Shown piece by piece: positions 45,409-49,494 of a DNA stretch of 64,000 nt. Under the pieces are notes generated by a model that saw only the letters and a list, made by a program, of their open reading frames with translations, did not search any database and was not told where the DNA came from. Made by a program: the position numbers and the translations under genes. The stretch lies in assembly GCF_007004725.1 (NCBI RefSeq), contig NZ_ML660166.1, positions 62,001 to 126,000 on the forward strand. Direction: 5' to 3'. Each line of letters starts with the position of its first letter. Position 1 is the first letter of the stretch. This stretch comes from Aliikangiella coralliicola (GTDB taxonomy: Bacteria > Pseudomonadota > Gammaproteobacteria > Enterobacterales > Kangiellaceae).

Positions 45409-45735
45409 TGAATCCTCATTTTTATTGATAAGCAACCGAACTCAGAAAGTCCCGAAGAAAAAACTCATTTGAAACACTAGAACTGAAGCGCGCATAGGTT
45501 AACGAGATGCATTAGTCCAGTCAAATGATAGTTCAGTTCTTTTGGTTAGTTTAAATTCTTTACGTCGGTATTCTGTGCTACTCATATCAACAATGTGAAG
45601 ATATCTAGTAACACTCTTGTTCTATGTGACTCTATAGGACAAAATGAACAACCACAAAGTTCGGCAAGCAGAAATAAAACCTGGCCCGGAATGTGGTAGC
45701 CATATGACAACTCGGCAACTAGAGAGGAATTAGTG
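45409..45735. promoter_or_regulatory. Divergent region murJ / msr fusion
   Basis: 327 bases between divergent starts. I see the ribosome-binding sites of both genes at its edges but no clear promoter hexamers, hairpin or small gene. Confidence 0.4.
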
Positions 45736-46623
45736 ATGACCCAAAAACTCAACCCACTATCGCCAGAAGAAAAACGCGTTATCATTGATAAAGGTACAGA
45801 ACGCCCATTTACCGGGAAATATAACGAGTTTTCCGAAGGTGGCATATACACCTGTAAACAGTGCGATGCACCACTCTATCGGTCTGAGGATAAATTTATT
45901 TCCCATTGTGGCTGGCCAAGCTTCGACGATGAAATCAGCGGCGCAATCAGGCGAGAAGTTGACGCAGATGGCCGCCGTACCGAAATTCTTTGTGCCAATT
46001 GCGGCGGACACCTCGGGCATGTGTTTAGTGGTGAAGGTTTAACCGAGAAAAATATCAGGCATTGCGTTAATTCAATTTCGATGAACTTTGTCAGCTCTGA
46101 TGAAATAGACGCCAACAATAAAAATTCCAATAATGATAAACCAACGAACTCTGCATATTTTGCCGGCGGCTGCTTTTGGGGAGTCGAGCATTTAATGCAG
46201 CAACAAGCAGGCGTTGTAAGCGCAGTATCTGGATATATGGGAGGGCAAACGGACAACCCAACATACGAACAGGTTTGCAGTAAAACTACCGGTCACCTCG
46301 AAGTTGTTGAAATCAACTATCACTCGGATGAAGTCGATTTTGAAACCTTAGCCAAGTTATTTTTCGAAATTCATGATCCAACCCAAACAGACGGCCAGGG
46401 ACCTGATAAAGGTTCACAATACCTGTCCGCAATTTTTTACAACAATAATGATGAAAAACAAATTTCCGAAAAATTAATCGATATTCTTCGTACAAAAGGT
46501 TACGACGTCGCCACTCAATTGCTACCCGTCGATACCTTCTGGAAAGCTGAAGATTATCATCAGGACTATTATCAAAAAAATGGGCACTCCCCTTATTGCC
46601 ATCGCTACGAAGCGAAATTTTAA
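45736..46623 (+). CDS. Methionine sulfoxide reductase B-A fusion
   Basis: A 295-residue two-domain repair enzyme. The N-terminal MsrB domain (about 1-125) has zinc-binding Cys pairs (CKQC, CANCGGHLGHVF), HCGWPSFDDEI and the catalytic RHCVNSISMNF. After an Asn-rich linker, the MsrA domain (about 138-295) has the catalytic AYFAGGCFWGVEH and ends GHSPYCHRYEAKF. Together they reduce both diastereomers of methionine sulfoxide with thioredoxin. There is no signal peptide, so it is cytosolic. I chose ATG 45736 over GTG 45733; AGAGAGG lies upstream. The order B-A is less usual than A-B fusions. Confidence 0.95.
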   Translation: MTQKLNPLSPEEKRVIIDKGTERPFTGKYNEFSEGGIYTCKQCDAPLYRSEDKFISHCGWPSFDDEISGAIRREVDADGRRTEILCANCGGHLGHVFSGEGLTEKNIRHCVNSISMNFVSSDEIDANNKNSNNDKPTNSAYFAGGCFWGVEHLMQQQAGVVSAVSGYMGGQTDNPTYEQVCSKTTGHLEVVEINYHSDEVDFETLAKLFFEIHDPTQTDGQGPDKGSQYLSAIFYNNNDEKQISEKLIDILRTKGYDVATQLLPVDTFWKAEDYHQDYYQKNGHSPYCHRYEAKF

Positions 46624-46745: not shown

Positions 46746-47126
46746 TTACTTAATCAAACACTATTTAACGATGAAATAGCCTCCGCAAAAATTGAAAATA
46801 CGTCCATATAATCGTCTAATTGTCGTTAATTGACACAAAAATCAGATAAAAAGAGAAAAACAAAAGGTGTGCCACCAGTTGACTTTGTCGTTGTCAACAT
46901 GCCCTCTGCTCGCAAAGCCCCATAAAACAAACACGTTAAACAAATCAACCGACTCATAATGGTGAATTTTATATATTGCACAATGATGATTATTTATTGA
47001 ATACTTGCTGATTAATTATTGATTTATTGTTGATATTGACTTGCTCAACAAATGGCTAAACCTGAGTTATTAGGCTATTTTAAGACTATGGCCGAGTAAT
47101 TTTTTACAGCGACTTAAATATTTATT

Positions 47127-47153
47127 TGTAACAAACAAAACTGCAAACGTGTC
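47127..47153 (+). promoter_or_regulatory. Candidate ECF-type promoter for bufA
   Basis: TGTAAC and CGTGTC separated by 15 bases, loosely like extracytoplasmic-function sigma promoters (AAC-containing -35, CGT-containing -10). Pattern only; spacing is not decisive. Confidence 0.2.
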
Positions 47154-47227: not shown

Positions 47228-47695
47228 ATGAAAAAAGTAAGTCAAAAAATTACTGGAGCGGCCATTGCAGTTGCCGCAGCAACTTTAATGGGATGTACAA
47301 CAACTCATTCTGGCAACAGCGCTTCAACAGCCACAGCTCAGGGAGGTACAACCGACCTCGTACATTGTTATTCAGTTAACCAATGTAAGGGCCATAATGA
47401 TTGTAAGACAGCCGAAAACGCATGTGCCGGGCATGCCGAGTGTAAGGGCCACGGTTTTGTCGCTATGCCTAGTAAAGCCTGCGACGATATTGGCGGAAAA
47501 ATCAAAGATAGTTATCGCGGCACTATAGCTGAAAGCGAATTAGTACATTGCTACGGCGTTAATCAATGCAAAGGTCACAATGATTGTAAAACAGCTGAAA
47601 ATGCTTGTGCGGGACACGCAGAATGTAAAGGTCATGGATTCGTTGCAATGCCTGCAAAATCTTGTGGTGATGTTGGCGGAAAAGAAGGCGCATAG
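47228..47695 (+). CDS. bufA: Bufferin-type (BufA2-like) Cys-rich precursor with two tandem cores
   Basis: A 155-residue exported precursor. The N-terminus ([20 protein letters not shown]) leads to a lipobox-like MGC with C23, suggesting a lipoprotein. After a Ser/Thr-rich spacer come two copies of a 61-residue unit. Each has six Cys in the pattern C-x5-C-x5-C-x6-C-x5-C-x12-C (47, 53, 59, 66, 72, 85 and 108, 114, 120, 127, 133, 146) within [19 protein letters not shown]. This pattern fits Cys-rich precursors modified by DUF692 enzymes, the copper-binding bufferins; the name is from family knowledge, and copper binding is inferred. The two copies differ at many silent sites but few residues. 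GGGAGA precedes the chosen ATG. A terminator hairpin and then bufB and bufC follow. Confidence 0.85.
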
Positions 47696-47716
47696 TATCG
47701 AAAACGTTAAGATATG

Positions 47717-47744
47717 AAGGCGCAATCGCGCCTTTTGTTTTTAT
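47717..47744 (+). terminator. Terminator hairpin between bufA and bufB
   Basis: AAGGCGC and GCGCCTT pair over 7 bp with an AATC loop, followed by TTGTTTTT. It lies 22 bases after the precursor stop and 84 before the bufB start, so may lower enzyme expression relative to precursor. Confidence 0.85.
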
Positions 47745-47827
47745 CTTTTTAAATAATAAATTACGATTTCTTTAGTATTTTATTACTAGTAGTTTTATTA
47801 ATTTTCAGGCGACGTAAGTGTGATAGG

Positions 47828-48727
47828 ATGGATATAAATAACGGGAGACCCTATTTAGGATTTGGGCTAGGTTTACGCACCGAGCATTACCATCATGTAT
47901 TAGAACAAAAACCTGATATAGACTGGTTTGAAATCATCTCCGAAAATTATATGGTCGCAGGCGGTAAGCCTAAGTACTTTTTGCACGCGATTCGAGAACA
48001 TTACCCAATGGTAATGCACGGTGTTTCGTTATCCATCGGTAGTAGCGATCCACTCGATATCAACTATTTAAAATCTTTACGTAGCCTAATTGCGGAAGTA
48101 CAACCCGAATGGGTTTCAGATCATCTTTGCTGGACCTCTGCCCACGGAATTAACACTCACGATTTAATGCCCTTGCCTTATACCGAAGAAGCAATTAATC
48201 ATGTAGTTGAAAGAGTTCAGCAGGCACAAGAATTTTTAGGGAGGCCAATACTTCTTGAAAATGTTTCAAGTTACGTGACCTACAAACATTCTGTTATTTC
48301 TGAATGGGAATTTTTTAATGAAATAGTCGCTCGATCGGGCTGTTTGATGTTGCTCGACATTAACAATATTTATGTTAGTTCACGCAACCATAACTTTGAT
48401 CCTCTGCGCTATATTGATTCAGTCGATAAAGAAAAAGTTTTTCAATTTCATTTAGCGGGGCATAGTGATTATGGTGACTATGTCATCGACACTCACGATC
48501 ATCCCGTTGTTGAATCTGTATGGTCATTATATCGCTATGCAATCGAACATCTCGGCGCTGTTAGCACAATGATTGAAAGAGATGACCAAATCCCACCTTT
48601 TGAAGAGTTGGAAGCAGAATTAAATTATGCTCGCGGTATTGCTAGCGAGTTCTTACCTCAAACTAATGCGCAGTTCCAATCGAGTTGCTCTAACAAAGTT
48701 TCTAGAGCAAGTTCATGTCAGAGCTAA
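47828..48727 (+). CDS. bufB: DUF692 multinuclear iron oxidase (BufB)
   Basis: A 299-residue TIM-barrel enzyme of the DUF692/MNIO family. Metal-ligand segments are visible: MHGVSLSIGS, SDHLCW, ILLENVSSY, LLDINNIYVSSRNH, FHLAGHSDYG, DTHDHPV and MIERDDQIPPFEEL. The family uses a multi-iron centre and oxygen to change Cys residues of peptide precursors into heterocycles; the precursor here is presumably the adjacent Cys-rich lipoprotein. It has no signal peptide, so modification takes place in the cytoplasm before export. It overlaps bufC by 13 bases, indicating coupled translation. The start ATG lacks a clear ribosome-binding site. Confidence 0.95.
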   Translation: MDINNGRPYLGFGLGLRTEHYHHVLEQKPDIDWFEIISENYMVAGGKPKYFLHAIREHYPMVMHGVSLSIGSSDPLDINYLKSLRSLIAEVQPEWVSDHLCWTSAHGINTHDLMPLPYTEEAINHVVERVQQAQEFLGRPILLENVSSYVTYKHSVISEWEFFNEIVARSGCLMLLDINNIYVSSRNHNFDPLRYIDSVDKEKVFQFHLAGHSDYGDYVIDTHDHPVVESVWSLYRYAIEHLGAVSTMIERDDQIPPFEELEAELNYARGIASEFLPQTNAQFQSSCSNKVSRASSCQS

Positions 48728-49494
48728 AAAAACTTCACCATAGCTTTATTGATTATTTATTTGATAAAGAATCTGACATTAGCGATTTTATTTGCGATAA
48801 AAACGGCGCTAATAAAAATGATCGACTTAACATTTATCGCTTTGCATTTAAAAAACGGTTAAGAGATGTCATCGATAATGATCACCCAGTACTCGGTCAA
48901 TATCTCGGCGACGAACTTTTCGACCTGTTGGTAGAAAAGTATATTGTTCTACACCCATCCAGACATGTTTCACTAAGGCATTATTGTGACGACCTGCCGC
49001 AATTTTTATCAAAACAGGCACCATTTTCCGAACACCCTATTCTTGCAGAAATTGCCTTGTTTGAACGCCTGTTGATGTTTGCTTTTGATGCATCAAAAAG
49101 CGAGCGCTTGACCATTGAGAGTTTACAAATAATCACGCCCGAACATTGGCCCGCTATTAAACTTCGCTTTCATCCCAGTATGCAATTATTAAATGCAGAA
49201 TGGAACTCTGTTGAAAGTTGGCAGGCCATCAAGTCAGAGCGTTCTCCAGAACCTGCAACTCAGCAGGGAGAACGTTACTGGGTAATATGGCGAAACCAGG
49301 AAAACCTGACAGAGTATCGTTCGCTTTCATTTCCTGAATGGAGCACATTGCAAAACTTTTTACGTGGTAGCTGTTTTAGCGAGGTTTGTGAACCTTTGTT
49401 AGAGTGGTACAACGAACAGCGTGCCCCCTACCAGGTTGTTGACTACTTAAGGCAGTGGTTTAACGATAAATTAATCACCAAAATAGAAGCTTAA
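48715..49494 (+). CDS. bufC: DUF2063 partner protein (BufC/HvfC-like)
   Basis: A 259-residue protein whose N-terminal part (LHHSFIDYLFDKES, then NIYRFAFKKRLRDVIDNDHPVLGQYLGDELFDLLVEKYI and HPSRHVSLRHYCDDLPQFL) matches the DUF2063 domain. In DUF692 systems this partner recruits the precursor to the enzyme. The C-terminal part is less conserved. It overlaps bufB by 13 bases and completes the three-gene operon. It converges with an SDR epimerase gene 64 bases later. Confidence 0.93.
   Translation: MSELKKLHHSFIDYLFDKESDISDFICDKNGANKNDRLNIYRFAFKKRLRDVIDNDHPVLGQYLGDELFDLLVEKYIVLHPSRHVSLRHYCDDLPQFLSKQAPFSEHPILAEIALFERLLMFAFDASKSERLTIESLQIITPEHWPAIKLRFHPSMQLLNAEWNSVESWQAIKSERSPEPATQQGERYWVIWRNQENLTEYRSLSFPEWSTLQNFLRGSCFSEVCEPLLEWYNEQRAPYQVVDYLRQWFNDKLITKIEA

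Follow-up and report, generated by a model that had tools for sequence, protein, structure and literature searches.

A lipobox-bearing, two-core BufA2 bufferin precursor in a bufABC operon of Aliikangiella coralliicola

Bufferins bind copper and carry thiooxazoles, and in the text of a 2025 survey the Buf2 group, earlier named Buf_6/12Cys, comprises 90% of precursors with six cysteines and a remainder with 12 (PMC12452194). The same text presents a model of a 12-Cys Buf2 with duplicated domains, predicts lipoprotein signals in approximately 16% of Buf2 proteins, and reports MerC-bufferin fusions as a kind; of the two Buf2 proteins modelled there, one is WP_077285100 of Cognaticolwellia aestuarii, the 12-Cys member to judge from context (PMC12452194). 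Lipidation is also a feature of the DAG-RiPPs (lipidated chryseobasin-like, oxazolin), for which triacylation of DybA was demonstrated in E. coli, and the same source mentions a subset of bufferins with signal-peptidase-II signals (PMC12636315). A related thiooxazole system of Microbulbifer is described as binding Cu(I), and its expression under copper is reported to have gone undetected (PMC12538549). To place a further system among these, we analyzed an operon of A. coralliicola in a 64,000-nucleotide stretch of contig NZ_ML660166.1 (positions 62,001 to 126,000), which as a whole is referred to here as the window. We judge it very probable that this is a minimal bufABC operon making a membrane-anchored, tandem two-core BufA2 bufferin whose cores are modified and bind copper. 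The features of the locus, in window coordinates, are as follows.

47125..47135, + strand: near-palindrome TTTGTAACAAA, approximately 100 bp upstream of bufA, a possible but weak operator
47228..47695, + strand: bufA2, from ATG to TAG, encoding a two-core bufferin precursor of 155 aa (NF050166, Cu_RiPP_BufA2)
47228..47296, + strand: signal peptide of the lipoprotein type, with an LMGC lipobox (assigned by inspection)
47357..47497, + strand: core 1, 47 aa, Cys47, 53, 59, 66, 72 and 85, with Cys-Lys at 53, 59 and 72
47540..47680, + strand: core 2, 47 aa, Cys108, 114, 120, 127, 133 and 146, with Cys-Lys at 114, 120 and 133
47716..47735, + strand: GC-rich terminator-like hairpin of 8 pairs with a T-rich tail, in the bufA-bufB gap
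47828..48727, + strand: bufB, MNIO (DUF692) maturase (NF050167, PF05114)
48715..49494, + strand: bufC, DUF2063 partner protein (PF09836)

The NCBIfam model NF050166 matched the bufA2 frame in two stretches at 145.3 bits against a cut-off of 60, and the separate matches within this one frame scored 81 and 73.7 bits, each above the cut-off, which excludes chance. The sequence comparison thereby establishes both family membership and the two-core architecture. A GGGAG motif precedes the ATG. By inspection, the charged start, hydrophobic stretch and LMGC are those of a Sec signal peptide, as in other BufA2 precursors, and the position of the lipobox Cys23 (47294-47296, Thr at +2) after the hydrophobic stretch predicts a lipoprotein processed by signal peptidase II. 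The 12 core cysteines, a number in keeping with the 6 or 12 conserved in BufA2, are invariant among 25 aligned proteins and include three Cys-Lys pairs per core. An earlier note on this DNA had counted 12 cysteines in total, which holds for the two cores together but not for the whole protein, where Cys23 brings the number to 13. Its 61-residue copies are correct as a period but not as the conserved unit, which is 47 aa because the 14-residue linker is not repeated. In other respects the frame, the lipobox, the two six-Cys cores and the DUF692 and DUF2063 genes all lie where the note had placed them, and its reading of a bufferin-type operon agrees with the NCBIfam matches to BufA2 and BufB above their cut-offs and with the presence of the DUF2063 partner. 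Searches with the precursor found no relative among PDB sequences and none of the query among phage records; a plasmid search returned 17 records, 1 of which covered at least 80% of the query.

The bufB product scored 389.4 bits against NF050167 (MNIO_BufB, cut-off 310) and 377.9 bits against PF05114, and its nearest solved structures by sequence are 3bww (E 2.7e-48), 8hci and MbnB entries. Scores against maturases of the methanobactin and chryseobasin types were well below the cut-offs (MbnB, 71 vs 325 bits; ChrH, 41.4 vs 600 bits). An Asp following the presumed catalytic Asp is described as a feature of MNIOs of Cys-Lys precursors (PMC13097082), and BufB contains ERDD at residues 250-253. 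This motif is present in 63 of 87 BufB-like matches (two of the 87 being duplicate loci); Gly or Ala replaces the second Asp in 18 of the 81 ERDx matches, so the Asp is not strict, and the remaining 6 matches are EWDx, in loci with a below-cut-off BufA match. The start of bufC overlaps the end of bufB by 13 bp. Its product scored 64.5 bits against PF09836 (cut-off 27.2) and 42 bits against the HvfC model NF050145 (cut-off 142), and is therefore filed as DUF2063 only; a PDB sequence search gave only an unconvincing match (E 0.9). The order bufABC, with a BufB MNIO and a DUF2063 partner, is that of BufA2 systems. No DoxX gene was seen by eye beside the window operon or among the ORFs after bufC in 22 relatives. 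The same 7.04-Mb genome contains a second bufferin-like operon, of Buf1 type, on contig C5 (L002 72-2699), which shares a signal peptide, an MNIO (39% identical to that of the window) and DUF2063 with the window operon, but has a short DUF2282-like precursor without a lipobox and an ECF-sigma-like gene (precursor and sigma gene named by inspection). These two MNIO matches are the only ones in the genome; a third DUF2063 match lies at C9:16039-16182.

To evaluate how common this architecture is, we compared relatives drawn in several ways. A scan of genome contigs with a two-core query returned 224 relatives. The 80 best of these and three loci from a 61-genome set constitute the 83 two-core loci considered besides the window; since the 80 were found with a two-core query (lipobox in 5 of 6 rows of its alignment), they do not measure how common two cores are. 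Each of the 83 holds one two-core frame and 82 have BufB. The layout is conserved at the sequence level, with the BufB match starting 16-328 bp downstream of bufA in all 83 gaps (the window and 82 of the 83 loci). At one locus of Alteromonadaceae bacterium M269 (L091) a two-core lipobox precursor has no BufB match within the fetched flanks; BufB is present at L034, which carries the same strain name. A lipobox occurs in 67 of the 83 two-core relatives (best 80 of 224 plus three) and is absent from 16, including 7 Shewanella and 3 Motilimonas loci, so the design can do without the anchor. Among the 61 genomes, 6 matches passed the BufA2 cut-off, source genome included; every one of the 6 is two-core, and 5 of them carry a lipobox. 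Marine genera account for many of the relatives that bear a name. Pleionea belongs to the family of the host, and the same precursor is present at L009 (G011, also of this family) and at L023, from Pleionea sp. CnH1-48.

When 369 genomes were drawn evenly from the class of the host, 97 had a match and 67 exceeded the BufA2 cut-off. The precursors read at the above-cut-off loci of this sample were 82 single-core (16 with a lipobox, 66 without), 5 MerC-type fusions and 2 two-core, the latter being those of the window and of genome G042; the internally expanded precursors of L173 and L182 were counted as single-core. For these comparisons the lipobox rule was loosened after missed boxes were noticed, giving 67/83 two-core and 16/82 single-core precursors as against 62/83 and 13/82 with the stricter first rule. 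The difference between 21 of 27 non-redundant two-core and 16 of 82 single-core precursors (Fisher p 8e-8) serves as an indication only, given the differently drawn samples and shared ancestry. The duplicates L007 (of L085), L009 (of L023) and L142 (of L123) and a DUF2282-like ORF in L115 were dropped, and L101 was excluded from codon work for its length.

The class sample also contained other variants. L182 (G403:C18:8300-12900) has a BufA2-like precursor of 10 Cys, enlarged within its core, next to a single-core lipobox precursor, and internal expansion of this type is a second route to more cysteines. Three BufA2-like precursors occur in a row at L173 (G414:C3:158300-163700), two with a lipobox, one of which also has a His-rich stretch and 13 Cys. 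MerC-type BufA2 fusions were recognized by an AACCLG motif at L169, L170, L172, L175 and L179.

In the light of these comparisons and of the literature, the suggestion in the earlier note that a tethered two-core protein would be a different, undescribed design is overstated. Among two-core relatives the combination with a lipobox is usual (67/83; best 80 of 224 plus three), and both duplication (approximately 10%) and lipoprotein signals (approximately 16%) are in print for Buf2 in the survey text (PMC12452194). That text shows no decisive difference between the 12-Cys Buf2 and the window system, the two sharing a Sec signal, two six-Cys domains and a bufA-bufB-bufC order with MNIO and DUF2063 (PMC12452194). 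In the C. aestuarii genome the sole above-cut-off BufA2 (L090) is likewise a two-core precursor with an LMGC lipobox, BufB and BufC; it is 63% identical to the window protein over the best segment and is likely the published model WP_077285100. The DAG-RiPPs resemble the window system in having an MNIO-modified precursor with a signal-peptidase-II signal, and differ in core motifs and chemistry (PMC12636315). In the literature passages searched, we found no statement that joins duplication with lipidation. The operon is real and was read correctly; its family is known, and so is its architecture, which is a minority form in the family but the usual one within its own branch.

Both cores bear the marks of selection. 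Across 47 aligned codons, core 1 and core 2 of the window have 17 identical, 25 silent and 5 replacement codons, with third positions holding 29 of the 37 nucleotide differences, and the count of silent against replacement differences suggested by the earlier note thus indicates purifying selection on both. The NG86 dN is 0.078; pS is 0.99, which is too saturated for dS. At identical residues the same codon is used in 16 of 41 cases (shuffle mean 17.4), with no excess over random synonymous choice; avoidance of identical codons between the copies was considered and rejected (z -0.6). Tandem Repeats Finder saw no DNA repeat. The silent excess and randomized codons imply that selection has acted on both cores ever since a duplication, or a last homogenization, that is old as dated by silent sites. 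The old duplication claimed in the earlier note therefore stands for silent sites but requires amendment, as the core middles are kept alike within lineages.

This likeness is evident when the two cores are compared within proteins. In 27 non-redundant proteins, window included, the two cores of a protein share the residue at 992 of 1269 positions. Reassigning core 2 at random among the proteins gives 914 (sd 8), and 0 of 5000 shuffles reach 992; because the shuffle takes no account of kinship, common descent explains some of this surplus. Most of it is found at positions 8-31, which run from shortly before Cys2 to shortly after Cys5, a post hoc block whose bounds were set after inspection of the per-column table. 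Mean identity of this middle is 0.860 within proteins vs 0.739 for core 1/core 2 across proteins, and the own core 2 is the nearest neighbour of core 1 in 11 of 27 proteins, with 3 more ties. The core ends serve as an internal contrast to the kinship effect: for the C-terminal part (32-46), core 1/core 2 identity is 0.649 within and 0.658 across proteins, and in 0 of 27 proteins is core 1 closest to its own core 2. Identity in this part is 0.762 among core 1s and 0.683 among core 2s, so that core 1 has a clear identity of its own by position and core 2 a weak one. A clean old split of core 1 from core 2 was also considered, and the whole-core tree (54 cores, 47 columns), which is poorly resolved with an unsettled bootstrap, speaks against it. 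In this tree the core 1s and core 2s do not form groups of their own (18 changes, a number reached or undercut in 281 of 500 shuffles), and the two cores of the window stand together (99/84), as do those of Pleionea (100/89); the mosaic is visible only block-wise. An AlphaFold model of the precursor from 25 sequences had a mean pLDDT of 65.1, with three of five models at or below 45.5; it is unstable between models, and the end segments are more confident than the Cys-rich middles.

Gene conversion alone, rather than selection for a common substrate sequence, could account for the likeness of the middles, and we consider this a serious though less probable explanation. Same-codon pairs in the middle number 325 of 554 in the 27 non-redundant genes (shuffle mean 296.8, z 3.0; flanks z 0.5), the corresponding values over 83 genes are z 8.4 for the middle and 2.0 for the flanks, and silent divergence between the cores is low in L046, L086 and L030 (pS 0.38-0.41). 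The window argues otherwise, as the two copies of its middle agree in all 24 residues but share the codon at just 8 of them (shuffle mean 11.3, z -1.6), so there has been no recent conversion there. On these codon patterns gene conversion probably contributes in some lineages, and selection keeps the middle in the window. That the middles are alike and the C-terminal parts are not is as expected if one enzyme handles both middles.

A reading in which only one core is modified, the other acting as a structural spacer or leader-like recognition domain, is unlikely. It draws on the positional difference of the core ends, such as position 44, where 20 of 27 core 1s have V, 21 of 27 core 2s have I (reversed in the window) and the within-protein matches number 1 vs 6.9 expected, and on the leader region that RiPP enzymes often read. 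However, the six cysteines are kept in both cores of the 25 aligned proteins, the middles match within proteins, and single-core precursors, which make up 82 of the 87 others in the class sample (the rest being the 5 MerC fusions), need no second core.

The proposed pathway, in which both cores are substrates, would proceed as follows. BufB with BufC would oxidize some cysteines of both cores in the cytoplasm, probably at the Cys-Lys sites, to thiooxazole-type heterocycles. By analogy with characterized bufferins and with lipoproteins in general, the modified precursor would be exported by Sec, lipidated at Cys23 and cleaved by signal peptidase II. The lipoprotein would then probably reach the outer membrane and bind excess copper there with its two cores. 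Asp at +2 is the retention signal of E. coli lipoproteins; its absence from the window precursor makes the outer-membrane destination probable, and it occurs in 0 of the 67 lipobox-bearing two-core relatives.

Expression of the operon may be controlled by the hairpin behind bufA, a probable attenuator that would keep precursor output above enzyme output. The 47696-47775 segment folds with z -2.6, with 2 of 200 shuffles equally stable. Hairpins of the same kind occur in 18 of 83 bufA-bufB gaps, window included (mean 0.6 in 20 shuffles), and in 9 of 26 non-redundant gaps, window included (mean 0.1 in 20 shuffles); the rule used found no hairpin in 65 of the 83. A region-wide terminator scan was at chance level (2 found, 2.9 expected), so the case for the hairpin rests on its placement and on the relatives. 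The near-palindrome TTTGTAACAAA is a possible, weak operator by its sequence: TTGTAACA lies at -102 in the window and at -107 and -111 in the family relatives L006 and L023, whereas the remaining 24 of the 27 upstream regions lack it. With one mismatch allowed, the 11-mer is found 4 times in the whole window, which is as often as chance predicts (4.0). A CueR-like site was found in 0 of 27 upstream regions, and k-mer enrichment there revealed nothing widely shared.

The same operon and modification could serve another metal or redox stress, which we regard as improbable: MerC-bufferin fusions in some members hint at mercury (PMC12452194), five having been recognized here by AACCLG, and an msrAB-like methionine sulfoxide reductase frame (45733-46623, named by inspection) lies approximately 600 bp upstream of the precursor, but copper is what characterized bufferins and the related thiooxazole peptide bind, and no mercury gene was seen by eye among the neighbouring ORFs. 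It is similarly doubtful that two-core lipidated BufA2 proteins form a distinct class, an outer-membrane copper sink with middles acting together (they may, for instance, share one copper site or cluster), concerted evolution and position-specialized ends.

The matching middles are a modest addition to a known family. The likeness of the middles and the difference of the ends yield a prediction of the segment that is read by the enzyme, and the natural lipobox-free relatives (7 Shewanella, 3 Motilimonas) provide a ready comparison. As the survey text has it, bufferins answer copper stress widely in bacteria (PMC12452194); a two-core lipoprotein would place the copper binder at the membrane, which bears on periplasmic copper buffering.
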